Shown: piece after piece, positions 9,615 through 47,512 of the stretch | Layout: each line of letters opens with the position of its first letter | How positions within the stretch are numbered: position 1 is the first letter of the stretch | Source: Lepiota brunneoincarnata | Lineage: Eukaryota > Basidiomycota > Agaricomycetes > Agaricales > Agaricaceae | DNA length: 64,000 bases | NCBI GenBank assembly: GCA_023014365.1 | Contig: JAEBUN010000016.1 | Coordinates: forward strand, 558,001 to 622,000 | Direction of reading: 5' to 3' | Made by a program: the position numbers and the translations under genes | The notes under the pieces: model-generated | Told to the model about the DNA's origin: nothing | Seen by the model: only the letters and a program-made list of their open reading frames with translations | Database searches by the model: none

Positions 9615-10201
9615 TCAAAATGTATTGTGAGGTTCTCCAATCATGTTAGATTTGGCATTGTCCCCAAAATTGACATCAACAAATTTGCGATTGAAATCCT
9701 CATAGTCATGGTCAAAACACCTGTTCACTCTGACTGACTGAGGGCTTGGCTTGTAATTGGGAATGCATCCTTGATAGTTACAATTGGTGGATGGACTAGT
9801 CAGGGGTCTGTGGTTGGGGTGTAAGCCCGTGAGAGACCAGGTATGTGCTGCACTTGCTCAGATGGGGAGAGAGGCTGTCAAGGAAAAGTGGGTCCAGTAA
9901 TGATTGTACTGGACTGGGTGACCTGTACATGGGTGGTGTTGGACTCAGAAGTGGGAACCTTGTTAGAACTTGGTACCCTGGTTGCTTGTCCTTGAACCAT
10001 CTTGATGTCTGCAATATCTCTTGCGGATAACATCCATCCAGGAGTTCCTTGATGAGGATTTTGGGTGCAAAATTTCTTGTAGTGACTGGGAGCTGTGGCA
10101 TGACAGTAGTGGCATTTGTATTGTACACACTGTGTCTTGAGATGACCCAGTCTACCACATAAAGAACATGGGTTGTATCAGGTTCAATGAATCATTGATG
10201 A
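9615..10201 (-). pseudogene. ORF3 zinc-knuckle accessory protein of N2, 3' part
   Basis: Minus strand, truncated at its 5' side by N3. One frame reads CSLCGRLGHLKTQC then CHYCHATAPSHYKKFC, a pair of CCHC/CCHC-like knuckles with the same spacing as in the ORF3 of N6. After frame breaks it ends AKSNMIGEPHNTF and a stop at 9615, matching the SNITGEP C-terminus of ORF3 in families A and C. The polypurine tract and LTR follow within 50 bp, so ORF3 is the last gene of the element. No function can be stated beyond probable nucleic-acid binding. Confidence 0.75.
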
Positions 10202-10617
10202 TGTTATCAGAATTCCCCAATCAGAAACCTGTCCAGAAGGAACTCTTATCAGAAGCACCAAGTATATAAATAGATAGAAGAACTGTCACTCTGAAACAAT
10301 CAGAAGTGCACATCAGAACAGTCTATAATTAGATAGATAGGACCTTGACTCAGTATGACTCACCTTACCTTGGTCCAGATATATATAGTAGGAGCATAGC
10401 CACACATAGTAGTATATAAGGATACTGTACTATACCTTGTATCCTTATCTTAGTGTTATACAGTTCTTGCCTCCTATACCTCTTTGCCCATAAACCGGCT
10501 GGGCTTATAGTGCTCCATTGTCTCCAAGTCACACCTAGTAGGACAAGACCAAGTCTGTATAGACATCTTGCCTCGAATGCCATACTACTCAAGAGCAAAC
10601 CCTTAACCTGGGTAATA
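10202..10617 (+). repeat. 5' LTR of N3 (LTR-A1) with priming region
   Basis: 416 bp, TGTTATCAGAATTCC to GGGTAATA (the usual GGGTAACA with one C-to-T). TATATAAG at 10413-10420; ATCTTAGTGT at 10447-10456, 35 nt downstream, is complementary to ACACTAAGAT at 10620-10629, two bases after the LTR. Confidence 0.88.
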
Positions 10618-10718
10618 AAACACTAAGATACTCTGCTGCTTATCTCTTGCTTGCCCTCTACTCTGCTGATGTACTGAACATGTAGAGGTACTCTGTTGAC
10701 TCTTCCAATGTACTGAAC

Positions 10719-11012
10719 ATGTTGAGGTACTCTGCGTTGTGGAATACAATGTTGTTGCCAATTGCGATGTTCTCTGTAGCTGTTGCTACATTCCTATCCT
10801 CCATCCTGCCTCTGCCAGCAGACCTGGCTCACCTATTGCTAGTGGCCTTCATCACCATAGCCATACTCTCAGCACACCACATCCTTATGGTCAAACTCAA
10901 ACTCATACATTGCTACTGCAACTGCTGTCGCATCAGATCTTGGAACTTGTACCTCAGTATACAAGTCATCCTCACCCAATTCTTCATACTTCTAGTGGTA
11001 ATTGATTGCTAG
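10719..11012 (+). CDS. ORF0: small hydrophobic leader ORF of N3
   Basis: 97 codons between the 5' LTR and gag, ending about 12 bp before the gag start. Two hydrophobic segments stand out: HLLLVAFITIAILSAHHI and a C-terminal ILTQFFILLVVIDC, with a CNCC cluster between. Homologous frames occupy the same place in N5 (38550-38879) and N4 (43227-43478), ending FFILLAIID. It looks like a small two-helix membrane protein. Alternatively it may be only an open stretch of leader RNA; the copies differ mainly by CpG transitions, so selection cannot be judged here. I recognise no family. Confidence 0.4.
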   Translation: MLRYSALWNTMLLPIAMFSVAVATFLSSILPLPADLAHLLLVAFITIAILSAHHILMVKLKLIHCYCNCCRIRSWNLYLSIQVILTQFFILLVVIDC

Positions 11013-11024
11013 ACAACTGCCACC

Positions 11025-13506
11025 ACACCACCAAAGAAATTCTCAGCCTGAGAATCCCCATCATCCCCTCCTCCCAAATCAAGAAACAGAATCTCAGGAC
11101 CAGGTATACAAAACCCAGACCCCAGAAGAAATCCCACACCATAACCCACTCAAACACCATCACCATTCTATCCTCTATCCCCATTTGATTCACCAACTCC
11201 ACATGCATCATCATCCACCCAAATTGTCACAAGAACCCCAACATCATCAAGTGTTTCAGCTGCATTAGCTGAAAGACAAAGACAATGTGAAGAACAAGAA
11301 AAGCGCGATATCATTGCAAACCAACTCACTGCCCAAGAACTCAATAGACTCCAACATGCAGTACAACAACCAAGAGAACTCACAGGTTCTGAAGAAAACC
11401 TCCTTGCAAGACACAAAGCTTTCATTGAATTCAACAAAGGAAAAATCCCAGATGATGACTTAGATGTCTATATCACAGATGACAACCAATCAGATCCCAA
11501 TCCACAACCACCTGCATTACCTGCACCAACACAACCCTTAGCCCTACTGGCACCACCCATACAACCACCAACACCACCACCACCAACCCCAGGACAAATA
11601 CAAATGGCTGCACAAACTCTGAAGGAACTAGGCCTCCTCAAACCCATTGCCTTCAATGGAAATAGAAGACTATTCAAAGATTGGATCTTCCAATGCAAAG
11701 TCTATGTACTCACCAATCAAACCACCTACAACACCAATCTTGCCAGGACCATATTTGTCCTCTCAACAATGCAATCAGGAGATGCCCAAGCCTGGGCCAG
11801 ACAATACCTCCATGAGAGGAATGCCCAAACCCAAGCAGGACAACCCATAGTCATGGAATCATGGGACAACTTCACTGCCCAGCTTAGAGCTGACTTCACC
11901 CTGGCAGATGAACATGCATATGCACACACTAGACTTCAAACCCTGCACCAAGCAGGCAAACTGATGACTGAATTCAATGCTCAATTCAAAGAACTTGTCC
12001 ATCAATCTGGACTCAATGAAGATTGCACATTGATTGATCTCTATCATAAAGCAATTGATTGCCATATTGCAATGAAGATCGATGAATTGGAGAACCCCCC
12101 GACAACCATCACTGCTTGGTATACCCAAGCCAACAAACTTGATGATAACTTCTGCAGAATCAATGCCCTTTATGGTACCCCCAGAAACACATTCCCTCAG
12201 AGGAACCAATACCAGCCCAACTGTGGACCAAACTGTCCAAACAACAATGTGCCCTACGCACAATTCTATCAGAGGAGTAACTGTTATGAACAGTCCAGAC
12301 TGAGAGGAACAAGAACAATTATTCAACTTTACAAGATGGGTACAGGAAACCACAGACCAGTTGCGAGCACAGGAATATGAAGATGAAGAAGGGGAATATT
12401 ACAATGCCATGCAGGACTTGGCAAGAGAAGCAGGAATGGAGATAACTCTGGAGGATATTCTGGAATACCCTGAGGATGAGGAAGATAGCCATGGATCAAC
12501 CAATCCAACCTCCGATACAGATGGAAGCACTGAGAGAATGAAGAGTGAGAATGGAAGAGAACCCATGGAGATAGAATCGGGAGAAGAGGATTATGAGTCA
12601 GAGGACAGCAATGGAACATCACACAGCAGTGGAATGGAGAATGAGGACACTGACTCATTGTAAGATATAAATAACAGTAGGATACCATCAGCTAGGATGC
12701 ACATCATGGTTGAGACTGCACAGGACAAGTAGAACAGCCCAATAACCTATAACGAGTATATAGTATCTCATAGGTATATAAGGCCTGTACAAGTAGAGAT
12801 TAAAGCCTCAAGCTTTAATCTTGTTAACAGCAGTTGTTAACCCTCTCTGCCTTAACTTGGTGTGTTCCCTCATTATATCATTGAGCGCAATCCACTAAGC
12901 TCTGCAAGGCCAACTGTCTTGGACACCTTGTAGAGTGATTGAAGGCTGTCTCCAGTTATCCTTGGATACAGAAGGAGCATGGATCATAACAGTAATGCTC
13001 CATGTTTCACCCCACGAGACCCACATGCCATGGAAATAGACCATGCTGCAATAGAAGAAGGATTTGAAGATCCTTATCCTGAAATCCCTCAACTGGAATA
13101 TACCAAAGAAGACTCTGCACAACAACCATTGGAATTAGATGCCATTGTCACTGGACAACAAATAAAATCATATCAGAATCAAGAATGCTTCTGATGCAGA
13201 GCTAAAGACCATTGGGTCAGTAAATGCCCACAACCACCACCAGCCAGACACTTCCCAGGAATGCACACCAACCCTCCTCACCCTGCAAGAAACCCTAACC
13301 ATCCCTTCCTTGGACAACAAAACACATGTCCCAGATTCCCAAACCGGAATGCCCAATGATCACTGTAATGCAAGTACTCCCTTGCCATTGCAGAAGTTGC
13401 ATCCCAGATGCACCAAATGGTTGATGAACTTGATCCCAAGTTACAACAAGAACTCCACTCCGCGCTAGCCAAAGATCCAGAGATGCATCCATTCCAGGAT
13501 TTTTAA
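11025..13506 (+). pseudogene. gag of N3, interrupted by solo LTR-C
   Basis: Structural protein. The start codon is ACA at 11025, where N4 has ATG. An N-terminal proline/serine-rich and coiled-coil part (LAERQRQCEEQEKRD) is followed by the capsid-like region GLLKPIAFNGNRRLFKDWIF to about 12276, then LTR-C (12282-12991). Gag resumes NAPCFTPRDPHAMEIDHAA, then a CCHC knuckle whose second Cys is preceded by TGA (13193), and ends PFQDF with TAA at 13504-13506. Stops at CGA positions show CpG decay. The end GAT TTT TAA is the proposed -1 shift site. Confidence 0.85.
12282..12991 (+). repeat. Solo LTR-C in gag of N3
   Basis: 710 bp from TGTTATGAACAGTCC to GGATCATAACA. Flanks are GTAAC (12277-12281) and GTAAT (12992-12996). 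Related copies read GCAACGCTCC here, so the right copy's C stood before G and became T while the left copy's C stood before the LTR and did not change. Contains an acidic open frame (12361-12663) and the TATATAAGG box. Confidence 0.93.
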
Positions 13507-19472: not shown

Positions 19473-20597
19473 TCAGAAAAAACCACATGGTTCTCCTGTG
19501 ATATTGGACTTGGCAACCTCATCATAACATTCCTCATAGTAGTCGTCATTAGTGAGGTCGATGTATTGATTGTGAGTGGAGGGAGTCATCATGGGACAGG
19601 CTGCTGGAGTTTGGGAGTAGGGGGTGTGTCAAGTCTTTTGATTAGGGCATTTGGTCCATTTATGGTGCGGTTGGAAGACAGCACAATGGGGGCATCCATA
19701 CTTGATGCAGTCATAAGAGTAGTGCCCTAGGGCATATTGCTTGCACCTGAGACAGGCAAATTGGGGGCAATCCATGGCCCAGTGTCTGATATGTCTGCAT
19801 TGGATGCAGACTGATCTGTTGGTGGTTCAGGGGTTGGTTTGTGCATGAATGGGATTGGGGGAGTTCCAAACCAGGATGTGGTTATTGGTGATGGTGTGGG
19901 TGGTGTTCCTAGTGGGGGTGAGATGTCTGAAAGGGTTTCTGAGATTGGCAGGCTTCTTTCCCTTATTGGGAGTGGGGGTGGTGATAGTGGTAGGGGTTGT
20001 CACAGCAATGGTGGTGATGGTTGTGGTGGAGGGCTGCAAGGTATGTATCTCATCTCGCTTGGGTAAGTTCTTCAACACCTTGGACATGAGGCTTGATCTT
20101 GAGCAGAGAAGTTGCTCAAGTGATTCTGCCCAGGTGCATTGCATATTGTATGCAGCAGTGAGAGCCTTAGTCTGTTGTACATGGTGGGTGTAGTCCAACC
20201 AGAGTTGTTGGTCATATTCTGAAATTGGAGAGTGTTCCAATTTATCCATAATGTTTCGGCTGGTTGCAGCCTCATGCAAATCTCCATCAGAAGGGTGATT
20301 TGGTCCATGTGGTTGTACTCCAGCTGTATGGAATCTAAGGGAGGCAGCTGGGGTGATTGTTGGTTCTGGGGTGGCATTGGGGTCAGGAGTCTTGTCTCTA
20401 TCAGTGGTGTAGGCTGTGGCAAAGGTGTGAGAGGAGGTGTAGGGAGATGGGGCCAGAATGGGAGTTGTCTGAAGTGTTGTATGTTTGACCTTCTGGTCAT
20501 TGATGATGATTATGGAGGAGGATGATGAGGATGGAGAGGGTGTGGTGGAGTAAGGGGGAGTGGTTTGGGGGTGAGTGAGGTTGAGGTTCATGGGCAT
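19473..20597 (-). pseudogene. ORF3 accessory zinc-knuckle protein of N4, nearly full length
   Basis: 374 codons from ATG 20597 (3 nt after the pol stop) to TGA 19473, with a few internal stops. The N-terminus is rich in Pro/Ser/Thr (MPMNLNLTHPQTTPPYSTTP), the middle has the conserved stretch LWLDYTHHVQQTKALTAAYN and CSRSSLMSKVLKNLPKRDE. Then come three knuckle-like units: CIQCRHIRHWAMDC, CLRCKQYALGHYSYDC and CPHCAVFQPHHKWTKC. YIDLTNDDYYEE follows, and the end is AKSNITGEPCGFF. Nothing like this third ORF is expected in Ty3/gypsy elements. It may act as a second nucleocapsid-like RNA- or DNA-binding protein; that is inference. Confidence 0.75.
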
Positions 20598-22235
20598 CTT
20601 TTAAGTACATTTGGTGTGAGAATGAAGTTGTCTTTGGTAGGTTCTGGTGGGTTCCTGATCTTCCTGGGGAATTCCATGAGTTTCTTTATACTTGGTTAGG
20701 TATTCTTCAGTGTTTGCGCAGAGTGTTTCATCAGTGATCCATTTGTTCTCTGTGTGGGAGTATCCTTTCCATTTGACATAATATTGGAGTTTTCTGCAAT
20801 GTCAGCAGTGATCAAGAATAGCTTCTATTTCATATTCTTCTTCTTGATTGATGATGTCTGGTGGTGGTGGAGTTGGATGAGATCCGTATGCTTCTGTTTC
20901 AGTATATGGGGTTAGAAGATTTCGGTGGAATACCAGATGTATCTTCCATTTGATTGGAAGTTTTAATTTGTATGTCAGTGGTGATAGGACTTCTGAGATA
21001 AGGAAAGGTCCTAGTCGTTTTGGGGATATTTGTTGGAGATGAAAGAGAGTTTGAGGTTTTTGGCTTCTAGCCATACTTTTTGATGTGTTTCAAGGGGTTT
21101 GACAGTTCTTCTGGTTCTTTGTTTCATAATGTTGGCAGAGAGTTGGTATGCTGCTTGTGCTTCTTTTCTGGCATTATCAAGGAGTCTGATGCATTTGTCT
21201 ACTGATGGAAAGTTTGATGTTTCCATTACCGTGGGTATCGGTGGAGGGTTATATCCCATGATTAGTTTGGGGATTTCTGCCTTGAGGCATGTATTTTGGA
21301 GTTGTGTGCAAATTCGGCAATAGGGAGGGTTTCTGACCAGTCAAGGGGGTTCCTGGTGCAGTATATGGTGAGATAGGTCTTGATTTCTTAGTTGTATCGT
21401 TCAGTAGAACCATTTGTCTGGGGATGGTATGCAGTTGAGAATGCTTGTTGGATGTTTAGTCATTTGGCTAGCTCTCAGAGGGAATTGGCAGTGAATCTGG
21501 GGTCTCAATCTGATATGATCTTGTTGGGTAATCTGAATCTAGTGAAGACTTTTTCTATTAATAGTTGTCTGATGTTGTCAGCATTTGATCAATCTGAAGT
21601 TGGGATGAAAATTACCCCCTTCATAAGGCCATGGTCCACCACAGACAATATTGCATTATGACTGGTGCTAGGCAGTAGACTGGTGATAAGATCCCATGAG
21701 ATTTGAGCAAATGGGTGTCTGGAAGATGATGGTGGAATTGGGTGAGTCAGGGCACAATCCAGTCTGTGTATGATTTTGTGTTGCTGACATTCGGGACAGC
21801 ATTTGACATAATTCTTTATGAACATTGACATTCCTGGCCAATATACTTCTTTCTTGGCAAGGCAATATGTTTCCTGTTCTCCAGGGTGGCCACGTGTAGG
21901 GTGGTCATGGTATCTTGCGATGACATTGTGTCTGAGTTGGAGGTCTTCTGGAATGATGACACGTTCTTGGAAAGTGAGGAGTGGACCATTTGAGGTTGGG
22001 ACTGTTCCAAAGTCTTTATTGGTGGCATTAGGGTGGGTTTCCTTTAGGAATTTGAACGCTTCAGTGGTTCTTGTGTCATATTTGGGTGATTCCGTGATTC
22101 TTTCTTGTAGTTCCATATTGACAGTGGCAATAAAGAGGTGTTCTGGGAGTACTGTGATCAGGTTTTGATCTTCTATGTTGACTGCAGTGACAAAGAGGTT
22201 GTTTGTAAGCATGGTGATGTCTTCATTATCGTTAT

Positions 22236-22655: not shown

Positions 22656-23306
22656 TTAATTTCCTTCTTCCGGGTATTCGGCTAAGTAGTGTGGTTCGTA
22701 ATATTTGATCTGAGTTTGGTCGGTGGAGTCTGGTCTGGGGGGAATGACTGGAGAGAAGGTGGGAGTGGGAGTTCTGTGAAGATCGAGTATAGTGGCGGTT
22801 TCTGGGGATGGGGGTTGTCCTGGATAGAAGATGTCGTATAGTAGGCATCTGAAATGGGGACTCTCTATTCTTTCTTCTGGTGGGGTGGTTGGGTTTTCTT
22901 CAGAAGGAACCGCATGGTTCTCCTGTAATGTTTGATTTGGCCACGTCGTCGTAGCATTCCTCATAGTAGTCATCGTGAGTGAGGTCGATGTATCTATGAT
23001 GAGTTGTGGGAGTGGTCGAGGGATGGGTTGTCGGATTTCTGGAGTAGGGGGCATGTTGAGTCTTTTGACTTGGGCATTCGGTCCATTTATGGCACGGTTG
23101 GAAAACAGCGCAATGGGGGCATCTATACTTGATGCAATCATATGAGTAATGCCCTGGGGCATATTGCTTGCATCCAAGGCAAGCAAATTGGGGGCAATCC
23201 ATGGCCCAGTGTCCTGTGTGCCTGCATTGGATACAGACTGATCTGTCGGTGGTTCGGGGGTTGGTTCGTGAGTGAACGGGATTGGGGGAGTTCCGAACCA
23301 GAACAT
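22656..23306 (-). CDS. ORF4: overlapping reading frame downstream of ORF3 in N5
   Basis: 216 codons, overlapping the last 130 or so codons of ORF3 in another frame and continuing past its stop to YLAEYPEEGN just before the polypurine tract. The part beyond ORF3 (FYPGQPPSPETATILDLHR, FSPVIPPRPDSTDQTQ) is kept open and similar in N3 and N4, and N6 has a frame in the same relation to its ORF3. It may be expressed by frameshift or splicing from ORF3 rather than from its own start. No domain recognised; Pro-rich and acidic. Confidence 0.5.
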   Translation of the reverse strand: MFWFGTPPIPFTHEPTPEPPTDQSVSNAGTQDTGPWIAPNLLALDASNMPQGITHMIASSIDAPIALFSNRAINGPNAQVKRLNMPPTPEIRQPIPRPLPQLIIDTSTSLTMTTMRNATTTWPNQTLQENHAVPSEENPTTPPEERIESPHFRCLLYDIFYPGQPPSPETATILDLHRTPTPTFSPVIPPRPDSTDQTQIKYYEPHYLAEYPEEGN

Positions 23307-24689
23307 TGTTACTGGCGATGGTGTGGGTGGCGTCCTTGGTGGGGGTGAGAAGTCTGAAGGGATTTCTGATACTGGTGGGCTTTCTTCCCTTATTGGGGAT
23401 GGTGGTGATGATTGCAGCAGTGGTCGTCATGGTAGTGGTGGGGATGGTTGCGGTGGGGGGCTGCGAGGTATGTACCTCATCTCGTTTGGGTAGGTTCTTC
23501 GACACCTCAGACATGAGGCTCGATCTTGAGCAGAGAAGTTGCTCAAGTGATTCTGCCCAGGCACATTGCGTATTGTACGCAGTAGCGAGAGCCTTAGTCT
23601 GTTGTACGTGGTGGGTATAATCGTACCAGAGTTGTCGGTCGTATTCTGAAATTGAAGTGTGTTCCAATTTAGTCGTAAAGGCTCCGTCGGTGGCAGCCTC
23701 GTGCAGATCTCTGTCAGAAGGGTGATCTGGTCCATATGATCGTACTCCAGCTGTATGGTATCTAAGGGAGGCGGCTGGGGCAGCTGTTGGTTCTGGGGTG
23801 TCGTTGGGGTCGGGGGTCTCGTCCCTGAGGGAGGGGTATGTTGCAGTGAAGGTGTGAGAAGGGGTGTAGGGAGACGGGGCCGGAACGGGAGTTGTCTGAA
23901 TGTCATATCCATGCCAACTCAGAGTCTAATCACTTAAACTTCGGCTTCTCGATTCCACATGTGCTCCACACAACAACCCTCTGCCCTCTGACTCGGCCCC
24001 GACTTGCTCCGACCGCAACCCACTGCCCCGATCACGAGACCACCTCCACACGTGCCGTGGTCACCTGACCCTCGGTGTCTCTAGTTCCAGTCTCCATTTC
24101 CCGTCCGTAGTCACGATACGTTATCGGTCTCCATACCTGTACCGGTTTCCATTCCATTCGTAATCTGTTCGTAATCCGTTGTAACTATATCGGCCTCCGC
24201 TTCGCTCCGCACGTAATCAGTACAAGTCATAGTTCGTAAGGCCAGTAGTATATATACTGTAGGTACTTGGCTTGTACTCCTCAGTCTGATAATCGATTCG
24301 AGCAGCGGACCAGCTCCCTGTTCTCTATCCTTTCCTCTCTTCTGCCTCGCTCCGCTTCGGCCCCGACTTCCTGAAATACGGACTAGGACAGTAGGAAGGC
24401 ACAGCACATACGCTGAGGCCACAAGTCCAACCCCCCACCCGACGTACTCCGCCTCGGTCCCGAAGTCTACGTACTGACTTCGCCCTGTCCCCCAGTTACC
24501 TTATATCAAGGTTACCACCCCGACCCTCCGCCTCGGTCCCGACCCGCACCGGCTCTAACACTGAAGTGTAGTATGTTCGATGCTTGCATTGTTTATGATG
24601 ACGACGGAAGATGATGAGGAAGTTGGCGAGGGTGTTGTTGAAAAAGGGGGAGTAGTTTGGGGGTGAGCGAGGTCAAGGTTCATGGGCAT
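22900..24689 (-). pseudogene. ORF3 accessory zinc-knuckle protein of N5, split by solo LTR-E
   Basis: Starts at ATG 24689, whose A lies 3 nt after the pol stop (24692-24694). The LTR-E at 23901-24560 interrupts EHTTLQ/TTPVPAP. Beyond it there are frame breaks, then an open run from 23667: YDRQLWYDYTHHVQQTKALA, CSRSSLMSEVSKNLPKRDE, and three knuckles CIQCRHTGHWAMDC, CLGCKQYAPGHYSYDC, CPHCAVFQPCHKWTEC, spaced as in N4. YIDLTHDDYYEECYDD and the final AKSNITGEPCGSF end at 22900. This is the best-preserved knuckle region of family A. Confidence 0.78.
23901..24560 (+). repeat. Solo LTR-E in ORF3 of N5
   Basis: 660 bp, TGTCATATCCATGCC to CCGGCTCTAACA, flanked by CTGAA at 23896-23900 and 24561-24565. 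Much richer in CpG than the copy at 15780, so younger. No LTR-E element with an internal region exists in this window. Confidence 0.95.
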
Positions 24690-29593: not shown

Positions 29594-30291
29594 TGTTATG
29601 ATCCGTGCTCCTTCTGTATCCGAGGATAACTGGAGACGGCCTTCAATCACTCTACAAGGTGTCCGAGACGGTTGGCCTTATAGAGCTTAGTGGATCGCGC
29701 TCAATGAGATAACGAGGGAAGACGCCAAGTTAAGGCAGAGAGGTAAACGACCGCTGTTAACAAGATTAAAGCTTAGAGCTTTAATCTCTACTTGTACAGG
29801 CCTTATATACCTATGAGGTGCTATATACTCGTTATAGGTTACTTGGCTGTTCTACTGGTCGTCCGCAGTCCTGACCATGATGCACATCCTGGCTGATGGC
29901 ATCCTAGTGTTATTTATATTACAATGAGTCAGTACTCTCGCTACTGCTGTGCGATGTTCCATCGCTTTCCTCTGACTCATAATCTCCTTCTCCCGATTGT
30001 ATCTCCATGGAGTCCTCTCCGTTCTCGCTCTCCATTCTCTCAGTGCTTCCATCCGTATCGGAGGTTGGATCGGTTGATCCATGGTTATCTTCTTCGTCCT
30101 TGGGGTATTCCAATATATCCTCCAAGGTTATCTCCATTCCTGCTTCTCTCGCCAGGTCCTGCATGGCGGTGTAGTATTCCCCTTCCTCGTCTTCGTATTC
30201 TTGTGCCCGTAGTTGGTCTGTAGTCTCCTGTACCCATCTTGTAAAGTCGAACAGTAATTCTTGTTCCTCCCGGTCTGGACTGTTCATAACA
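29594..30291 (-). repeat. 3' LTR of N6 (LTR-C), partly coding
   Basis: 698 bp. On minus it starts TGTTATGAACAGTCCAG directly after the polypurine tract CGAAGGGGATAA (30292-30303). Its first 370 bp encode the acidic end of ORF4. TATATAAGG box and a hairpin AGATTAAAGCT/AGCTTTAATCT lie further on. Confidence 0.95.
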
Positions 30292-31490: not shown

Positions 31491-31548
31491 CGTTGTCTGG
31501 TTCTGGGAGGTCTGGAGTGGTTGCTCGAGTGTTGGGTGGTTGGGTCAT
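30334..31548 (-). CDS. ORF3 of N6: zinc-knuckle accessory protein
   Basis: 404 codons, overlapping the pol end by about 119 nt in another frame. The N-terminal half carries a helical-looking region (VDTCWKTFTALLYHKRLVHD, TTEFEELCATILSSATEE). At about residues 226-258 come two knuckles, CNCCRRFGHIKAGC and CRYCRKIAPGHYEKHC, then an Arg/Pro-rich basic stretch and the end AESNITGEPVGLY. The knuckle spacing and the SNITGEP end match ORF3 of families A and D although the rest is barely alignable. Gag of the same element already has its own CCHC knuckle, so this is a separate nucleic-acid-binding candidate. Function unknown; a chaperone, silencing suppressor or export role are only ideas. Confidence 0.72.
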   Translation of the reverse strand: MTQPPNTRATTPDLPEPDNDGRLLIRERIISLANRVEGNSQPNPATDTADNQPDRTNSPYIIRHTFLPSNQPEIRSILLHEVPFHITGTRLKRSPAMVPLVDTCWKTFTALLYHKRLVHDRTTEFEELCATILSSATEEQDRNTISAMLSTALTEFPFESPIPSPSNGSGSQDRPILPIGTTTQPSNPPMVDTSNQPSSVVQAISASNDAPIGTTTTHLSTTRTRCNCCRRFGHIKAGCPRYQCRYCRKIAPGHYEKHCERNPYQHQPASMVPGLYRRPRGIPSRARSLTRETTNNNIRHIVASTEQRPASARPLRTRIQNAPVVIPTTNATTTSASGSHRLPESILRHTRHHSLQRTHRHRPHPRPAIPRPPSYRSDSPEPDPYFDWDPIAESNITGEPVGLY

Positions 31549-34500
31549 TGGTGGGGTTGTCTAGTTCGTGGGCCCTTTTATACTCTTCAATGACTTCCTT
31601 GGCGTTCTCCAGGTTTGCTTCTGGCTCCCAGGAATCCTCGGTGGGAAGGTATCCTTTCCATCTGACTAGGAATTGATACTTGTTCCGGAATTTTCTGTGG
31701 CGCAGTATTGACTCGACCTCGTATTCTTCTTCTCCATTTACAAGGTCGGGTGGTGGGGCTGTGTTGTATTCCCCATGTGTGTCGTTCTCTTCTGCAGGCA
31801 TTAGGAGGCTCGCATGAAACTTGTTGTGGATCTTCCATTTGATGGGTAATTTTAGTTCATAGGTAACGGGTCCAAGTTTTCTTGTTATGGTGAAGGGACC
31901 TTCTCGGCGTTGGGCCAGTTTCTTTGAGGCGTACTGAATTGGGAGGTTGCGGTTGTCGAGCCAAACCTTCTGTCCAACTTTTAGATAGATATCTGGCCGG
32001 TTATATCTTGCAGCCATTTTTAGTCTGGCTTGTTCATGCGCAGCTTGAGCTTCTTGGCGTATCTTGGCGAGGTATTTAAACTTCTCTCCTATTGCTGGAA
32101 TGTTCGTTGGCTCCTCGGAGGTCGGGAATCCTTTGGGGCTTGATCCATAGAGGAGTTCAAATGGGGTATGTTGGTGTTCGGCATGTGTTTTTGAGTTATG
32201 GACGTATTCCAGGAGTGGGAGTGCCTTTACCCATTTGTTCGGGTTCGATGAGCAATAGATGCCAAGGTAGAGTTCTATTTCTTGATTGAATCGCTCTGTT
32301 TGTCCGTCTGTCTGGGGGTGGTAGGCGGTAGAGAGTGCTTGTTCGATCCCGAGTTGTTTGTAGAATTCTTTCATGGATTTGGCAGCGAATCTGGGGTCGC
32401 GATCGCTGAGAACTTTCTCGGGAAGGCCAAATCTAGAGAATAGCCGTTTGATAAGAATTTCGGCGATCTTGTCCGCATTGGCGGTTTTCGCAGTAGGTTC
32501 TAGAATTATCCCCTTCGTAAGCTGGTCGACCACGACCAGTATAGAATCATGGGGTCCGTCCGGGGGTAGGTCTGTGATAAGATCCATCGAGATGTTCGAG
32601 AATGGACGGGTGGAACGGGGTCCAGGGATAGGTTGAAGCGGTGGTTTTAGGGGGTGGCGATTGATCTTGTATTGTTGGCAGGCGCCACATCCTTTGACGT
32701 AGTTTTTGACAAATGATCGCATCCCGGGCCAGTAGGCGTATTCCTGGAGTTTTCTAGTTGTTTCTGCGATTCCAGGGTGTCCTGCGGTAGGTGAGTCATG
32801 TACTCTTTGCAGTAAGCGGCGTCTGAGGTGTAGATCTTGTGGTATAAATAGCTTTCCTTGAACGCGTGGGTGTCCTGAGTCGTCTTCTTGGGCGATGTCG
32901 GTCTGTTTCTTTTTCTTCCACAGCTCTTTTATTTCCTTTTTAGTGTTTTCGTCGATAATATGGATATGTTGTGGCTGTTCTGGGGTGAAGAATTTGTCAG
33001 GGAGTGCAACGACCTGTTTATTGTCTCTTGTCTTGGGTTCATGATCGGGTCGTCTGGAAAGGGCATCTGCTGGTCCGTTTTTCTTTCCAGGGATATGTCG
33101 GATTTCGATGTCAAATCGTTGCATGTAGGCAATCCATCGGGCTTGTCTTCTGCTGAGGTCTTCAGGTTTTCTCCAGCGGCGAAGGTTGTCGTGATCTGAC
33201 CATACGATGGTCTTGTGTGATGATCCTTCTATGTGATGACGCCATTCTTTGAGTGCTCGGATGATGGCGAAGAGTTCCTGTTCGGAGCAATGATAGTTGC
33301 GTTCGGCTGGTGAGAATCCTTTCGAGAAGTATGCGACTGGGTGTTTAATTCCGTTGTTGTCGCGTTGAAGTAGGACTGCTCCTGATGCAAATAGTGATGC
33401 GTCGCATTCGATTTCGAAGGGTTTGTCTCGGTCGGGAACCATTAATACCGGTTCGCTTTGGAATTTTCTCTTGAGAGTATCGAAGGCGTTTTGGCATTCT
33501 TCTGTCCATTCGAATTTCTTGGTTTTGGACATTAGGGCATTGAGAGGTTTTGCCCATGTGGCGTATTGGTGTATGAATTTCCGGTAGAAGTTGCAGAATC
33601 CTATGAATTTTCGTACGTCGCGCGGGGTAGTTGGTGTTGGCCATTCAGCAATGCCTTTGAGCTTTGCTGGGTCCATCGAAACTGAGTCGGGAGTGATAAT
33701 AACTCCTAGATATTCGAGTCGTTGTCGTTCGAATTCGCATTTCTCGGTTTTGAGGTATAGATCGTTGTCTTTGAGTATTTTGAGTACTTCTCTTGTGAGG
33801 CGTCGAAGTTCTTGTTTTGTTTTTGCGTGAATGAGGATGTCGTCCATGTAAACGATTACTCCTCCATTGTCGATGAGTTTTCGGAATAATGAGTCCATCA
33901 TGGTTTGGAATGTTGCTGGGGAGTTACACATTCCAAAGAACATAACCGTGGGTTCGAATAATCCTCGGGGTGTCCTGAAGGCTCCTTTCCATTCATCTCC
34001 TTTGCGTATGCGGATGTTGTTGTATCCTGCTCGTACGTCGAGTTTGGTAAAGTATTTTGATCCTCGAAGTTTGTCGAGAATATGAGAGATGAGGGGGAGG
34101 TTGTATGCATTTTTGACGGTATGCTCGTTGAGGTACCTGTAGTCTTGACAGGGGCGTAGTTTTCCGTCTTTCTTTCCTACGAAAAAGAAGGGTGATGCCA
34201 TTGGCGATTCGGATGGTCGAATGTATCCCTTTTGAAGGTTTTCTTCTAGGAATGTGTCGAGTTCCTTTTCTTCATTGAGGGAGAGTCGGTAGGACTTCAT
34301 GGCAATTGGTTTGAATGATTCCTTGAGTTCAATTTTGTGATCCCATGGTCGTTGTGGGGGGAATCGTTCGGCTTGTTTCTTGCTAAATACTGGGAGGTAT
34401 TCGTGGAATTCCGTGGGTACAACTTTTCTTGGGTCGTCGTTTTTCTTTTCTCCGTGTTGTACGGCGAGGAATTGTGATGCGGAGGCTTTGAAGTTGATTT

Positions 34501-35097
34501 CTTCGAAGCTTGTGGGCTCTAGTGTAGAGATGTGGTTGAGTTGGTCGTTGTAGATCCAATCGGGTTCCATGGATTGGATGAGTTCTCGGAATATAGTGTT
34601 GTCCCAACGTTCGTTTCTCCAACGTAGTTGTTTGGCATCCCAGTCGATGTCTGGGTTGTGTTCTGCAAGCCAAGGGAATCCAAGGATGAGTCTTGGGCTT
34701 CCGAGGGAGACTACCTTTGGTTTGATCTCCATATTCTTCCCGTTAACCGTTAGGTTGAGGGTCGTGTAGTGGGTGGCTGTTCCATTTTCGTTAACAGATC
34801 CATCGGCATTTCGTACTTCGATGGGTCGATCGAGGGGTGTTGTTTTGAATGAATGTTGTTTGACCATTCCGGGGTCAATGAAGTTTCCTGCTGCTCCTGA
34901 GTCGAGTAGGGCGAGTAGTTCCACGCTTTCGGGTCCTTCCTTAGTGATCTTGTGTTTTCGGATTCGACAGGGTAGATGTATTACGCGTGCTGACGATTCC
35001 TGTAACTTTACAACATTAATATCATTTTGTGAATAGGAAAGGGAAGGAGGTCTTTGTGGAGGGCTAGACGTGGTGGCTAGTCTCCTTAGGCAAAATC
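31430..35097 (-). CDS. pol: pol polyprotein of N6 (protease-RT-RNase H-integrase-chromodomain)
   Basis: Open from the -1 shift point at about 35097 to 31430; counting from the first in-frame GTG at 34924 it has 1164 codons. Domains by that numbering: protease with LLDSGAAGNFID near residue 6; RT with FTKLDVRAGYNNIRI near 290 and YMDDILIHAK near 357; RNase H with FEIECDASLFASGAVLLQ near 500; integrase HHCC finger (AGHPGIAETTRKL ... CGACQQYK) near 710-750, catalytic Asp in SMDLITDLP near 778, second Asp in SDRDPRF near 835, Glu in FNQEIELYLG near 875; chromodomain EVESILRHRKFRNKYQFLVR near 1065-1110. All catalytic motifs are intact. Chromodomains of this class guide integration to modified histones, which fits its landing in heterochromatin-like repeats. 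Confidence 0.93.
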
Positions 35098-36210
35098 CTT
35101 AACCAGAGGGGCATCTGGGTGGTTGGATTCATTTGCAAAATGTTCGTAGATGTCCTCGACTTCTTCGTCGGTTGCATCTTCTAGTATGTTGTATAGCGAG
35201 TTCTTTTTCCTGTAGCTTGCTTGTCTTCTTCTGGATATCGCATTTGACCGGTTTCTGGCATCCAAATTGCGGGGTAATTCGGATCGGCGATATATTGTCT
35301 TCTTGGTGGGGCATTCGCGGGCGAAGTGTCCAGTCTTGCGGCAGTTGAAGCATCTTCTTTCTTTGAGATCCTTTCTTTGGGCGTCCGTGAGGATTGCATT
35401 GAGGGCTTCGCGGGTGCGTTCTTGTACCAACTGGTGGAGTCTGTCTTCTTCGGTCTCCTCGTCTTCATCAGCTTCCTCGGCGAGTAGATCTGGCTCGTCC
35501 TCAAAGTCGAGGTTGTAGACTGCTTCGGCGAGTTGGTCAATATCCATTGCGTTAGGGTCTGTTGCTTGATAGGGCAGTGGGACACGGCGCGTAAAAGCAT
35601 TTCTTTTCCCTTTAAATGGGCGAGTGCGCGAAGTCGTTGGAAACGAGGGAGTTCCTCGAGTTTGCATATAGTCGCGTTGAGTTTGTAGTATTTGATATGC
35701 TGTTCGAGCTTGCTTGAACCAGTCGCTGAGTTTGTTTCCTGGATTGAGGCTAATTGTCTTGATTGCGACGGGGCGATCCAGCCCGTTCTTGAAATAGTTG
35801 ACCGCCGCCACTCCATCTCCAAGGTCGGCCTGATAGGCAAGTATCTGGAACTGGGATATGTAATCATCGATATATCGTCCGTTCTGTTTGAGGTGGCGGA
35901 TTCTGTCCATTGCATCGGCGGGGACATTGTTTGGGGCGAAGGATGTATCGAGTCCTTCAAGAAATTTCTTCCATGTCGGAAGGGTCTGGCTTCCATCAAG
36001 TTCTTTGTTTGATTCCAAGAATGCTCCTCTCCATGTTGCGGCGGGGCCGGTGGACATGTATGAAAGGGCGAATTGTATCTTGGTCTTGTCATCGGAAAAG
36101 GCTCCTGGCTTTGCATCGATGTATAGTTGTACTGCATCCTTCCAGAGGCGGAAGTAGTCGGTCTCTCCATTAAAGGTTGGGGGTGTATTGATTTTTGCGG
36201 AGGAGGCCAT
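35086..36210 (-). CDS. gag: gag protein of N6
   Basis: 374 codons, MASSAKINTPPTFNGETDYF to VKDFA. The capsid-like retrotransposon gag region (FNGETDYFRLWKDAVQLYID, DYISQFQILAYQADLGDGV) is followed by an acidic linker (DEPDLLAEEADEDEETEED) and one CCHC nucleocapsid knuckle CFNCRKTGHFAREC at about residues 283-296. The same frame is open upstream to about 36695 with Ser/Pro-rich sequence but no ATG, so the N-terminus could be longer if an intron or non-AUG start is used. No disruption. Confidence 0.88.
   Translation of the reverse strand: MASSAKINTPPTFNGETDYFRLWKDAVQLYIDAKPGAFSDDKTKIQFALSYMSTGPAATWRGAFLESNKELDGSQTLPTWKKFLEGLDTSFAPNNVPADAMDRIRHLKQNGRYIDDYISQFQILAYQADLGDGVAAVNYFKNGLDRPVAIKTISLNPGNKLSDWFKQARTAYQILQTQRDYMQTRGTPSFPTTSRTRPFKGKRNAFTRRVPLPYQATDPNAMDIDQLAEAVYNLDFEDEPDLLAEEADEDEETEEDRLHQLVQERTREALNAILTDAQRKDLKERRCFNCRKTGHFARECPTKKTIYRRSELPRNLDARNRSNAISRRRQASYRKKNSLYNILEDATDEEVEDIYEHFANESNHPDAPLVKDFA
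35089..35100 (-). promoter_or_regulatory. Putative -1 frameshift window between gag and pol of N6
   Basis: Minus strand GGATTTTGCC followed by the gag stop TAA. The pol frame has its own TAA at 35101-35103, so the change of frame must occur within these few bases; tRNA-Phe on TTT could re-pair one base back on TTT. Family A ends gag with the same GAT TTT just before TAA. Confidence 0.55.
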
Positions 36211-36947
36211 ATTGTTAATGTCAGAGGTTGTGGATTCCTCGTCGGAAGTGTGAATAGACCCGGTAGTGGGGCTAACTTCGGATGGTTCGGATTGTACAGG
36301 GGAACTGGATCGAGGCGGTGAATGTACCGGTGATCCAAGTGGTGATGTGAGGGGTGAGAATGTTCTTGGGGGTTTCTGTTGCGAAGTGTTGTCGCTAGTT
36401 CTTGTACTTGTTGAGAGTTGAGGGCCGGAGGATGGGGTAGATGTTCTATGAATCGGCTCCCCGAGCTTTGAGCGGGTAGAGGTGGCAGTTCTTTCAGGTG
36501 GTGGTTGTTTAGGTAGGGATTGAAGAACTGATGCTGGGGGTGCTGGGTATCCTGGGTCTTCTGTTCGACGTTGAACTCTCTCGGTAGGTTGTGTAGGGTA
36601 CGGTGCGGAACCAGAGGGTGAACGAGTGAGGGGTATAGGTTTTGTTTTCTTTTTAGGGTCCGTGGTGGAGGGGGTGTGAAGTCGGGTTCGGAGTCGGTTG
36701 TCGACCAGTCAGAACTGTTGGATTCTTCGTAGTCGGTGGCAAGGGGGTCGTTTCGGTTTGTAGACAGGGTGAAGAGGGAAGAAGTCGAAGGTGAAGGTGA
36801 GGGTGAATAAACAACGCTTGCGGGTGCGTTATCCCAATCGACGCTTGAAGGTGCGGATGACCTGTATACAACGCTTACGGGTGCGTTATCCCAATCAACA
36901 CTTAAAGGTGTGGATGACCTATCAACGCTTTCGGTGCGTCTGACCAA
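35181..36947 (-). other. Long open frame overlapping the gag leader and gag of N6
   Basis: 588 codons from MVRRTESVDRSSTPLS, starting 190 bp inside the 5' LTR edge. The first part contains a 19-residue tandem repeat (SVDWDNAPVSVVYRSSAPS). The rest is Pro/His/Ser-rich and overlaps gag by about 1 kb in another frame. It could supply an alternative gag N-terminus by splicing. Equally, low T content on this strand makes stops rare, so the overlap part may mean nothing. Confidence 0.3.
36811..36930 (-). repeat. 57-bp tandem repeat in the N6 leader
   Basis: Two copies of a 57 bp unit beginning ACAACGCTT(G/A)CGGGTG at 36811 and 36868 and a partial third at about 36924. A second, looser repeat (GCGACAAGGCGT-like, three units) lies at about 36996-37100. 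Confidence 0.75.
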
Positions 36948-37123
36948 GGGTGCAGAGGGTATGGTGGCCTGCTCTACGGGGGTGTATCACCGGACAGCGA
37001 CAAGGCGTGTCGTCAGATACGGTTGGCACTCGGATAGCGATAAAGCGTATCGTCTGCCGGTGTGGAAGGGTAGCGACAAGGCGTACCGATACCACGGGGT
37101 GTACGATGGAGGTTGTCCAAAGG

Positions 37124-37135
37124 AAGCTTTAATCT
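37124..37135 (-). promoter_or_regulatory. Self-primer binding site of N6
   Basis: AGATTAAAGCTT on minus, two bases after the 5' LTR edge. It is perfectly complementary to AAGCTTTAATCT at 37307-37318 in the same LTR. No match to a tRNA 3' end (TGG-type) is seen at the junction. Confidence 0.7.
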
Positions 37136-37137
37136 AA

Positions 37138-37835
37138 TGTTATGATCCGTGCTCCTTCTGTATCCGAGGATAACTGGAGACGGCCTTCAATCACTCTACA
37201 AGGTGTCCGAGACGGTTGGCCTTATAGAGCTTAGTGGATCGCGCTCAATGAGATAACGAGGGAAGACGCCAAGTTAAGGCAGAGAGGTAAACGACCGCTG
37301 TTAACAAGATTAAAGCTTAGAGCTTTAATCTCTACTTGTACAGGCCTTATATACCTATGAGGTGCTATATACTCGTTATAGGTTACTTGGCTGTTCTACT
37401 GGTCGTCCGCAGTCCTGACCATGATGCACATCCTGGCTGATGGCATCCTAGTGTTATTTATATTACAATGAGTCAGTACTCTCGCTACTGCTGTGCGATG
37501 TTCCATCGCTTTCCTCTGACTCATAATCTCCTTCTCCCGATTGTATCTCCATGGAGTCCTCTCCGTTCTCGCTCTCCATTCTCTCAGTGCTTCCATCCGT
37601 ATCGGAGGTTGGATCGGTTGATCCATGGTTATCTTCTTCGTCCTCGGGGTATTCCAATATATCCTCCAAGGTTATCTCCATTCCTGCTTCTCTCGCCAGG
37701 TCCTGCATGGCGGTGTAGTATTCCCCTTCCTCGTCTTCGTATTCTTGTGCCCGTAGTTGGTCTGTAGTCTCCTGTACCCATCTTGTAAAGTCGAACAGTA
37801 ATTCTTGTTCCTCCCGGTCTGGACTGTTCATAACA
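37138..37835 (-). repeat. 5' LTR of N6 (LTR-C)
   Basis: 698 bp, TGTTATGAACAG to GGATCATAACA on minus. It carries the promoter and, unused in this position, the same acidic ORF4 tail as the 3' LTR. Confidence 0.95.
37347..37353 (-). promoter_or_regulatory. TATA box of the N6 5' LTR
   Basis: TATATAA on minus. Counting its first T as 1, the priming sequence AAGCTTTAATCT begins at 36 (37318), a sensible transcription start for a self-primed element. Confidence 0.65.
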
Positions 37836-43214: not shown

Positions 43215-43226
43215 GGTGACAGTTGT

Positions 43227-43478: not shown

Positions 43479-43583
43479 ATGTCATTTTGAATGACCAGGG
43501 TACCTTGACATGTTTAGTACATCAGCAGAGCAGAGCAGAGTAGAGGGCAAGCAAGAGATAAGCAGCAGAGTATCTTAGTGTTT

Positions 43584-43968: not shown

Positions 43969-46560
43969 CCTAGAATACAATAACGTCAAAATCAAAGATG
44001 GCAACCAATGGAAAGCAGCGTTCAAGACTCCTATGGGTCTTTTCAAACCAACTGTGATGTTTTTCAGACTTTGCAATAGTCCCACGATGTTCCAACATAT
44101 GATGGACACAGTATTCTCTGAAATAATGGAGAAAGGGGGAATCATCATCTATATGGATGATATCCTGATCTACAGTAAAACACAAGAAGAAACCAACCAA
44201 CTTATGGAAAAAGTACTGCAAATCCTGCAGGAAAATGGCCTCTACCTCAAAACAGAGAAATGCAAGTTCAATAAACAACAACTCAAATATCTTGGCATGA
44301 TCATCATGCCAGACAAAATCAAAATGGACCCTGGAAAACTCAAGGGAATAGAAGACTGGCCAGTGCCAAAAACAGTCCAACACATTTGGAAATTCATCAG
44401 ATTCTGTAACTTCTACTGGAAGTTTATCCACAGTTACTCCCACCACACCAAACCCCTTAACCAACTTCTATCCAAATCAACCAAATTTGAATGGAAAGAA
44501 GAACAACAAAAAGTGTTTGAAACACTCAAGAACAAATTCTTAAAGGAACTGGTACTCCTCATGCAGATGTTTCCAAATTCGCATCAGGAGCTGTCCTATA
44601 CCAACATGACATCAACAGAATATGGAAACCCATATCATTCTATTCAAAGATGTTCAGACCAGCAGAATGCAATTATGACATCTATTACAGGGAACTCCTC
44701 ACTATCATCCAAGCCCTCGAAGAATGGTGCCACTACCTTCTTGGCAGCCTGCATACTGTCCATATCAGAATGGATCACCAAAACCTCACATACTGGGGTA
44801 AACCCCAGAAAATCAACCACCAACAAGCACAATGGGTCCAGACCCTCACCAATTACAACTTCAAATTAGAACACATCCCAGGATCAAAGATTCCTGCACC
44901 AGATGCTCTATCAAGATGCCCAGACCACATCCCTTGATGAGGATAATGATAACAAAGACATCACCATGCTTCCAAACAACCTCCTTGTCACCACAACTGA
45001 CTTAGAAGATCAAAACATGATCACAGTACTCCCAGAACACCTCTTTATCACCACCGTTGATATGGAACTCCAAGAAAGAATCATGGAATCACCAAAATAT
45101 GACACTAGAACCACCAAAGCATTCAAACTCCTGAAAGAATCCCACCCTAATGCCATCAATAACGACTTTGGAACAGTCCCAACCTCAAATGGCCCACTCC
45201 TCACATTCCAAGAATGTATCATCATTCCAGAAGACCTCCAACTCAGATGTGATGTCATCGCAAGATATCACAACCACCCTACATGTGGTCACCCTGGAGA
45301 CCAGGAAACATACTGCCTCACCACAAAAGAAGTATATTGGCCAGGAATGTCAATGTTCATAAAGAATTATGTCAAATGCTGTCCAGAGTGTCAGCAACAC
45401 AAAATCATACACAGACCAGATCATGCACCAACTCAACCAATCCCACCATCATCTTCCAGATGCCCATTTGCTCAGATCTCATGGGATCTTATCACTGGTC
45501 TACTGCCTAGTGCCAGCCATAATGTGATATTGTCTGTGGTGGACCATGGCCTTACAAAGGGGGTAATTTTCATCCCAACATCAGATCAATCAAATGCTGA
45601 TGACATCAGACAACTATTGAGAAAGTCTTCACTAGATTCGGATTACCTGACAAAATCATATCAGATTGAGACCCCAGATTTGCTGCCAATTCCCTCTGAG
45701 AACTAGCCAAACGCTTGAACATCCAACAAGCATTCTCAACTGCATACCATCCCCAGACAAATGGTTCCACTGAACAATATAACCAAGAAATCAAAACTTA
45801 CCTTGCCATATACTGCACCAGAAATCCCCTTGGCTGGTCAGAAACCCTCCCTATTGCTGAATTTGCACACAACTCCAAAAAACATGCCTCAAGGCAGAAA
45901 TCCCCGTTTAAACTAATCATGGGATACAACCCTCTGCCAATACCCATGGTTATGGAAACTTCAAACTTTCCATCAGTAGATGAATGCATCAGACTCCTTG
46001 ATGATGCCAGAAAAGAAGCACATGCAGCACACCAACTCTCCACCAATATCATGAAACAAAGAACCAGAAGAACTGTCAAACCCCTTGAAACACATCAAAA
46101 AGTATGGCTAGAAGCCAAAAACCTCAAACTCCCCTTCATCTGCAACAAAATATCCCCAAAACAACTAGGACCTTTCCTTATCTCAGAAGTCCTATTGCCA
46201 CTCACATACAAACTAAAACTTCCAATCAAATGGAAGATACATCCAGTGTTCCACTGAAACCTCTTAACCCCTTATAATGAAACAGAAGCATGTGGACCTC
46301 ATCTGACACCACTGCCACCAGACATCATCAATGAAGAAGAAGAATACAAAATAGAAGCCCATTCTCAATCACTGCCGATACTGTGGAAGACTCCAATACT
46401 ATGTACATTGGAACAGATACTCCCACATGGAGAACCAATGGATATCTGAAGAAGAACTTTGCAACAACACTGATGAATACTTGGAAGAGTATGAAAAAGA
46501 ACATCAACTTAACAGCAATGACTAGGAACTACCCAGACCCTACCAGAAGCAACTTTGCTC
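43969..46560 (+). pseudogene. pol of N3 (second copy), 3' two thirds
   Basis: Resumes the RT at [20 protein letters not shown], with [10 protein letters not shown] (about 44152) and an RT thumb that is present here ([20 protein letters not shown]). RNase H has a small deletion after VLLMQMFPNSHQ (about 44565). Integrase finger CGHPGDQETYCLTTKEVYWP, CPECQQHK; core AYHPQTNGSTEQYNQEIKTY; ends with a frameshifted chromodomain around 46330-46450. Stops and frameshifts throughout; 5' part of this pol is represented only by the 23 bp stub at 18782-18804. Confidence 0.85.
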
Positions 46561-46581
46561 TACCACCAAACATACTCAAAA

Positions 46582-47512
46582 ATGTCCATGAACAACCTCA
46601 ACCTTGTCTGCCCCCAATCCACTCCCCCCTTCTCCTCTTCCTCCACCACTTCCTCTGTTGTTATCATCAATGACCCCAATATCGAAAGAAATTCCCCAAC
46701 TCCAATCCCAAGGCTGTCCCCTTTCACACCCTCCAATGCCTTCATCAACGTCAGAGACAAACACTAGCATAGAAGACTTACACATGATCACCTCCACCCA
46801 ATTCCTCACTGACAAAGTCAACAATGCTCCCATCAGCAACAACAACAGAGAAGTATGGGCAAACTACACCCATCATGTCAAACAAACAAAACTCCTCCAT
46901 GATGCCTTCCACACTCAATGAAAGTGGACTGAAAACTATGAGGCATTCCTCCTCACATGCCAAGGACTTATGTCCCAAATGTCAAGAAAGAAACAACCCA
47001 ATGTGGTACATCCCACCAACAAAATCATTCCAACTCCCACATCAGGAAGAAAGAACCCTGTTGGAACTAACAACCCCTTCCATAAAAACACCACCAAACC
47101 AACTCCACAACAGAACTCCCCTGCTCCTATCCAACAAGTTCCAAACCCCAAACCAAATGACAGATCCTGATGCATTCAATGCAAACAAATCAGACATTGG
47201 GCCATGGACTGCCCCCAATTTGCCTGCCTTGGTTGCAAATAATATGCCCCAGGCCACTATTCATATGACTGCATCAAATATAGATGCCCACACTGCAGAG
47301 TATTCCAACCTTGCCACAAACAAACCAAATACCCCTCAAAAGGACCAAGGCATACACCTTACAACAGACCTATGGCAGCTCAACCTCAAACCACCTCATC
47401 CCTCCATTACCAATACTCAGGACTCAAATACCCTGAAGAAGATGACTTCGATGATGGATACAACAACATCGCCATGTCCAACATATGCAGAGAACCAGTA
47501 GGAGATTTCTAA
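46582..47512 (+). pseudogene. ORF3 accessory protein of N3 (second copy)
   Basis: A more diverged ORF3 from ATG 46582 (MSMNNLNLVCPQSTPPFS) to TAA 47512. Conserved blocks: VWANYTHHVKQTKLLHDAF, then CIQCKQIRHWAMDC, CLGCK-stop-YAPGHYSYDC and CPHCRVFQPCHKQTKY, and a C-terminus AMSNICREPVGDF. The intervening linker differs from N4/N5, yet knuckles and C-terminal motif are retained. Broken by several stops. Confidence 0.75.

Follow-up and report, generated by a model that had tools for sequence, protein, structure and literature searches.

A selected zinc-knuckle reading frame downstream of pol, with a likely overlapping fourth frame, in Ty3/gypsy elements of Lepiota brunneoincarnata

Is the open reading frame (ORF) that follows pol in some Ty3/gypsy retrotransposons of Lepiota brunneoincarnata a gene, and is it the only one there? 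The question is raised by a 64,000-nt stretch of contig JAEBUN010000016.1 (positions 558,001 to 622,000 of assembly GCA_023014365.1), here called the window, whose coordinates are used throughout. The analysed genome comprises 55.6 Mb. The initial annotation of the window proposed that element families A, C and D share a post-pol ORF (ORF3) with CCHC zinc knuckles and a SNITGEP-type C-terminus. Substitution patterns among the genomic copies support this interpretation, and in A and D they also point to a second coding frame, shifted by +1 relative to ORF3. The reading preferred here, with a probability of roughly two in three, is that a selected accessory region lies between pol and the 3' long terminal repeat (LTR), and that it encodes the ORF3 knuckle protein and an overlapping ORF4 which runs close to the LTR or into it.

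A post-pol frame with CCHC knuckles and a shared tail (pattern A[KEM]SN..[GR]EP) was found in all five proposed copies. The expected two or three knuckles are present (two in D, three in A). Knuckles and tails were located in each copy, with a caveat that three of the copies are decayed: N4 is interrupted by stops, N6 has three in-frame stops within the ORF3 stretch examined, and copy-specific indels place the knuckles and the tail of N3 in different frames. The rest of the protein had been described as hardly aligning. This is true of A versus D, where the alignment (E 4e-6, 24% identity) has the knuckles and the tail as its clear common blocks. However, A and C have a pre-knuckle segment in common (W..YTHHV.QTK..., by eye). 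Third codon positions of the tail vary (AAA/AAG, TCA/TCC/TCT, AAC/AAT, ATT/ATC, GAA/GAG, CCA/CCT) and the residues mostly hold. The tail is therefore conserved at the protein level, and a conserved DNA signal was rejected as its explanation.

Genome-wide, the ORF3 of D has at least 103 scored matches (96-100% identity, 92 without an internal stop) and that of A at least 118 (82-100% identity). The N3 family, searched with the +1 frame of the N3 knuckle region, is found in at least five places. All match counts are lower bounds, as scoring covered the best candidates. The internal stops in the ORF3 copies are mostly TGA, as expected from C-to-T changes at CGA; methylation-like decay, or decay resembling repeat-induced point mutation, would give such an excess.

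Selection was measured as pooled pairwise Nei-Gojobori ratios of nonsynonymous to synonymous change (dN/dS), without a consensus. The A set consisted of 30 copies (435 pairs), the top of 118 ranked by ORF3-frame similarity. For D, the top 28 of 103 copies ranked in the same way were joined by 12 copies (six D and six diverged, D') chosen by hand among the 150 rows that a search with pol had listed. One of these 12 (L065) had too little coverage and was omitted, which left 34 D and 5 D' copies in the tests. Ten C copies came from a search with the DNA of the ORF3 region, which favours no frame, and 11 C sequences were tested. From knuckles to tail the ORF3 dN/dS is 0.11 in A, 0.17 among D copies (D x D), 0.39 between D and D' (D x D') and 0.12 in C; A pol has 0.14 by the same method. 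A logistic regression was also fitted, in which each possible change is set against its effect in each of the three frames; a single real copy served as the reference and, unless stated otherwise, all changes were included. It agrees with the ratios: z for the ORF3 frame is -6.6 (A knuckles), -2.3 (D knuckles) and -4.6 and -6.1 (C). The selection on knuckles and tail that the initial annotation had suspected is thus confirmed, with ratios far below 1 in all three families. Together with the more than 100 matches each of A and D, such ratios go beyond what chance would give. These substitution patterns establish purifying selection on the knuckle block and the SNITGEP-type tail in A, C and D, and by this evidence ORF3 is almost certainly a real, selected gene.

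The initial annotation had missed that, in A and D, a +1 coding region overlaps ORF3 and continues past it. Over the 240 nt that follow the ORF3 stop of A, dN/dS is 0.14 in the +1 frame versus 1.40 in the ORF3 frame (30 copies). Upstream of the knuckles of D, the +1 ratio is 0.11 (D x D) or 0.26 (D x D'). Across the initial 370 nt of the D LTR it is 0.10 (D x D) or 0.09 (D x D'), and the other frames there have 0.63-1.80. The middle of the A region (1620-2160) shows similar ratios in both frames (ORF3 0.46, +1 0.47), and the proportion of synonymous differences (pS) is about 0.09 in both, versus 0.15-0.29 elsewhere. A low pS in both frames is what would be expected if each frame restricted silent change in the other. 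The A LTR frame, taken as a control, has a ratio of 0.56.

The regression gives the +1 frame z values of -4.8 after the ORF3 stop of A and -4.4 in the D' LTR. Both frames of the shared stretch appear to be selected in the N-terminal half of D (+1 -5.3, ORF3 -3.3) and in A 1620-1900 (ORF3 -4.0, +1 -3.5); values in A 1900-2160 are -2.0 and -2.7, respectively. The six pol-picked D copies alone give a +1 z of -2.8 in the N-terminal half and again -2.8 in the LTR, where the +2 frame has -2.2. In control pol windows the off-frame z was never below -1.2 in A (34 values) or below -0.4 in D (20 values), and the +1 frame has -0.2 in the A LTR and +1.6 in the D LTR past the end of the frame. In the ORF3 region of C no +1 constraint was seen (z -1.3 and 0.1). 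Nine of the 11 C sequences have 2-6 stops in the +1 frame; the remaining two have a single stop each, and in the window copy that stop simply closes the frame at the tail. The +1 constraint reaches to 37 nt short of the LTR in A and about 370 nt into the LTR in D. As judged from these patterns, the +1 frame is under purifying selection in A and D, and not in C, along part of ORF3 and past its stop. ORF4 is therefore likely to be a real gene in A and D.

Four D-like LTRs in the window bear on the part of the frame that lies inside the LTR. Their indels within it are in-frame or compensating. In the order in which they are tabulated, their differences by codon position 1/2/3 are 14/6/26, 15/9/20, 13/10/27 and 34/24/37 in the frame part, and 9/14/11, 11/13/8, 7/9/10 and 18/20/18 in the remainder of the LTR. 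The excess at third positions is found in the LTR-frame part only. A selected frame inside the LTR, of the nef and sag type, was found in the D LTR plus these four.

Openness of the frames was assessed with indels ignored. Over the whole length of ORF4, starting at its ATG, the +1 frame lacks stops in 33 of 40 D copies (L065 partial) and 13 of 30 A copies. ORF3 is open from the ORF4 start onward in 32 of 40 and 12 of 30, and the +2 frame in none. Codon shuffles with as few +1 stops were 0 of 5000 for the ORF3 of D, and their fraction was 0.02 for A. Openness and codon shuffling were rejected as proof of ORF4, as the +1 frames of pol and gag are likewise stop-poor. Stop avoidance was set aside as evidence for +1 coding because expected counts were too low.

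Several observations weigh against two overlapping genes. Over the knuckles the ORF4 dN/dS is 0.98 in A and 0.95 (D x D) or 0.57 (D x D') in D, with +1 z values of -2.4 and -0.7 in A and D. Constraint in both frames thus does not extend along the whole overlap, and the continuity of ORF4 across the knuckle stretch rests on openness, which is weak evidence. Depletion of +1 stops is seen in pol (P 0.0005 and 0.0085) and in gag (0 of 2000 shuffles) as well. The +1 frame of D gag is open for 601 codons (35181-36986, minus strand) across nearly all of gag and in 8 of 8 copies over the roughly 1.3 kb compared, yet its core is unconstrained (dN/dS 1.05 vs 0.16 in the gag frame). The ORF3 frame of D is only weakly constrained upstream of the knuckles (0.65 D x D, 0.64 D x D'). 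Choosing A and D copies by ORF3 similarity favours low dN in the ORF3 frame, and 12 of the D and D' copies were picked by hand. When only changes present in at least two copies are used, A 1900-2160 is non-significant in either frame. Negative off-frame values then appear in the main D LTR (+2 -4.1), the D' LTR (ORF3 -3.0, +2 -2.8), the A knuckles (+2 -2.2) and the A LTR (+2 -2.2); the pol null windows were computed on all changes and not on this subset. A TGA shortly after the ATG is common to three D-like LTRs and argues against intact translation in those copies. ORF4 of A and ORF4 of D do not align. A protein database search with the D ORF3 returned a single match, the D family itself, with no homologue outside it, and one with the D ORF4 returned none. 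A search with the A/D ORF3 alignment gave no match either.

The alternative that survives best, although it is unlikely, is a single third protein that switches frame by programmed frameshifting or through introns, with no separate ORF4. In D it would combine an N-terminal half in the ORF4 frame with knuckles in the ORF3 frame and perhaps return to the LTR frame; in A, ORF3 would be extended into +1 past the tail. The order of constraint in D fits such a protein: the most constrained frame is +1 as far as the knuckles, ORF3 across the knuckles and once more +1 in the LTR. The ORF4 ratio near 1 over the knuckles fits it too. However, a single switching frame would not produce the simultaneous constraint on both frames of A 1620-1900, with pS reduced in both, and no covered copy has lost the ATG of either ORF. 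No right-phase intron was found in D 2200-2760, upstream of the knuckles, under narrow criteria (GT[AG]NG donors, lengths of 35-300, CTNAY branch only).

It is more doubtful still that the LTR stretch of D is a gene of its own, starting from an ATG 5 nt into the LTR, and not the end of ORF4. D and all four D-like LTRs do have an in-frame ATG in the sequence TGTTATGAAC with which the LTR begins. The corresponding stretch of A precedes the LTR and cannot start there, and in D the frame is open across the polypurine tract and the LTR start, with the same 33 of 40 copies free of +1 stops from the ORF4 ATG.

Equally doubtful is the proposal that ORF3 is a second, diverged gag which donates a nucleocapsid, and is not a regulator. 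It has in its favour the CCHC knuckles themselves and the best sequence matches in the PDB, which are nucleocapsid and Air2 knuckles (E 0.007-0.012). However, the knuckle is the one part of ORF3 with appreciable BLASTP similarity to the gag of these elements. Pfam detects nothing in the D ORF3 and a knuckle below threshold in A, with no Retrotrans_gag or capsid domain. The initial annotation had named a duplicated gag as the explanation to be checked; no visible gag duplicate was found in ORF3. AlphaFold models were poor (confidence score, pLDDT, 40 and 35) and did not yield a usable fold.

Least probable is that ORF3 alone is real and the +1 signal an artefact of base composition or copy choice: the D gag +1 frame is long, open and unconstrained, and some fits have few events and negative off frames too, but outside ORF3 (A after its stop, D in the LTR) the +1 frame combines dN/dS of 0.09-0.14 with a significant regression, no such signal is present in off-frame pol windows, the gag core +1 frame or the C family, and ranking on ORF3 similarity should not produce +1 constraint outside ORF3.

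Under the preferred reading of an ORF3 and an overlapping ORF4, the start codons suggest how the two could be expressed. Every covered A copy (29 of 29, with one uncovered) and every D and D' copy (40 of 40) has both ATGs, and that of ORF4 lies 100 nt (A) or 58 nt (D) downstream of that of ORF3. The A ORF3 ATG is located 2 nt past the pol TAA (TAAAGATG), which suits reinitiation; in D, about the last 119 nt of pol are shared with ORF3. The +1 segments would form one continuous protein, ORF4, opened by the conserved ATG, and one subgenomic or reinitiating mRNA might give both proteins through leaky scanning. The third-gene product is rich in Pro, Ser and Thr, and ORF3 has an isoelectric point (pI) of 8.7-9.5 (10.5 for the knuckle part of D). 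ORF3 may be a basic nucleic-acid-binding accessory protein, distinct from the gag nucleocapsid. It might act on the element RNA in export, translation or packaging, plausibly in the manner of Rex or CERV. The D ORF4 has a pI of 4.4 and a net charge of -43, of which the LTR-coded part contributes -34 over 123 residues, and the A ORF4 has a pI of 5.8; ORF4, acidic in D and mildly so in A, could be a partner or regulator. ORF4 of A and D could be either one fast-evolving gene that was lost in C or the product of two births. A further proposal can be made only tentatively: a complex-retrovirus layout may have evolved independently here, with ORF3 as a knuckle regulator similar to Rex or CERV, overprinted by an acidic ORF4 that ends in the LTR, and with the overprinted gene gained or lost between related families, being present in A and absent from C.

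Complex retroviruses are marked by accessory genes that overlap one another and extend into the LTR. Lentiviral nef and the sag gene of mouse mammary tumour virus are 3' genes whose coding sequence terminates within the 3' LTR, and the ORF4 of D likewise ends there, which is a likeness of layout. Neither a fungal gypsy ORF3 with knuckles nor an overlapping gene in an LTR retrotransposon was found in the literature, in a search whose coverage mostly excluded subscription papers.

In deltaretroviruses, 3' genes in the pX region also overlap in different frames; Tax and Rex are translated from one mRNA by means of different start codons, and Rex was probably born by overprinting, a process that gives rise to new genes (PMC3744397). 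Unlike them, the elements described here have a fungal host, no env was seen, ORF3 is a zinc-knuckle protein, and splicing or leaky scanning is putative. By this analogy the layout is pX-like, without a claim of relationship. Third ORFs are already known in other LTR elements (PMC5408684, PMC10309623). CERV of the Caenorhabditis elegans element Cer1 is, like ORF3, an extra gene separate from pol, Cys-rich and fast evolving (PMC10309623). It differs in its five-exon spliced mRNA, with the first exons in the frame of gag, and in a demonstrated role in the export of genomic RNA, which for the fungal ORF3 is a proposal. LTR elements of bdelloid rotifers share with the fungal ones a lineage-specific third ORF past pol, but of other types (env-like, GDSL esterase, DEDDy exonuclease or transmembrane/coiled-coil, TM/CC); the main text of that paper contains neither "zinc" nor "overlap" (PMC5408684). 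In gag, pol and an integrase with a chromodomain (Pfam, in D) the elements resemble other fungal Ty3/gypsy chromoviruses. They differ in the additional frames: LTR elements usually encode two ORFs, and "zinc", "envelope" and "downstream" are absent from the available part of the survey (PMC3248453).

If the reading holds, a selected overlapping 3' module in fungi would mean that a layout otherwise familiar from complex retroviruses does not need an infectious life cycle with env in order to arise. The D element is young and belongs to a multicopy family, and the second gene is missing from a related family; the birth of a gene by overprinting, and its function, would therefore be directly testable in a laboratory fungus. 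The case also cautions that annotating transposons by their longest ORF can overlook frames under selection and give credit to others that are not.

Table 1. Positions of the elements, reading frames and repeats discussed, in window coordinates.
Feature	Position	Strand	Remarks
D element (N2)	29594..37835	-	698-nt LTRs, gag, pol, ORF3/ORF4
D 5' LTR	37138..37835	-	
D gag frame	35086..36708	-	Pfam Retrotrans_gag, one CCHC knuckle
D pol	31430..35098	-	Pfam: protease, reverse transcriptase (RT), RNase H, integrase, chromodomain
D ORF3	30334..31548	-	404 aa from ATG; 2 knuckles, SNITGEP tail
D ORF3 knuckle 1	30832..30873	-	CNCCRRFGHIKAGC
D ORF3 knuckle 2	30772..30819	-	CRYCRKIAPGHYEKHC
D ORF3 tail	30337..30375	-	AESNITGEPVGLY; stop codon to LTR 42 nt
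D ORF4	29919..31490	-	+1 over ORF3, 523 aa, terminates within 3' LTR
D 3' LTR	29594..30291	-	first ~370 nt read in ORF4 frame
A (N5) ORF3, 3' part	22900..23925	-	5' end broken by insertion
A (N5) knuckle 1	23194..23235	-	
A (N5) knuckle 2	23134..23181	-	
A (N5) knuckle 3	23074..23121	-	CPHCAVFQPCHKWTEC; CPHC...H...C, from translation, coordinates counted by hand
A (N5) ORF4, open part	22656..23426	-	22656-22899 follows ORF3 stop, probably codes in +1
A (N4) ORF3, decayed	19473..20600	-	two in-frame stops, one each side of knuckles
C (N6) ORF3, mid-region to tail	46763..47512	+	decayed copy; family under selection
C (N6) +1 frame over ORF3	46824..47501	+	225 codons open; family without selective constraint
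N3 ORF3 knuckles and tail, decayed	9615..10168	-	lineage nearer D
ORF3 tails	9630-9656, 19488-19514, 22915-22941, 30349-30375; 47471-47497	- (first four); + (last)	
D-like LTR, 87%	12281..12993	+	119 codons of LTR frame
D-like LTR, 87%	49458..50167	+	LTR frame open 98 codons
D-like LTR, 88%	54527..55236	+	LTR frame open 119 codons
D-like LTR, 75%	59380..60089	-	LTR frame open 93 codons

The D element in the window is young, as its LTRs differ at 1 of 698 sites. It is flanked by a 5-bp target-site duplication (CTCGC), its ends are TGTTAT...ATAACA, of the TG..CA type of chromovirus LTRs, and a polypurine tract (GAAGGGGATAA) lies upstream of the 3' LTR. Pfam detects RVP_2, RVT_1, RT_RNaseH, H2C2, rve and Chromo (E 1.3e-15) in pol, in the protease-RT-RNase H-integrase order of a Ty3/gypsy chromovirus with a chromodomain. 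The first Met of the gag frame is codon 167, and 13 events were counted in the stretch of the gag +1 frame before it. Gag and pol share about 12 nt, pol being read in the -1 frame (..AAGGATTTTGCCTAA.., 35060-35110, minus strand), which suggests -1 frameshifting or reinitiation. After the 5' LTR (37108-37137, minus strand; TTAGATTAAAGC...) the usual TGG-type primer site was not seen. Tf1 is a self-priming LTR element, and by analogy self-priming is possible in D.

The initial annotation had placed N3 in family A. This is not borne out by one copy of the N3 family (L040), whose chromodomain (61 residues) is 52% identical to that of D and 45% to that of A. The short DNA sequence ATCGACCTCAC encodes IDLT both in the +1 frame of D (ORF4, around 30470, minus strand) and in the ORF3 frame of A before the tail; IDLT resembles a SUMO-interaction motif, perhaps by chance. 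The D element was inserted into another frame, gag-like by eye (FNGTRRLFKDWIFQCEVYM, 37836-38002, minus strand). Two of the D-like LTRs (49458-55236, plus strand) are 94% identical, have the same orientation, lie 5 kb apart and may bound another element.

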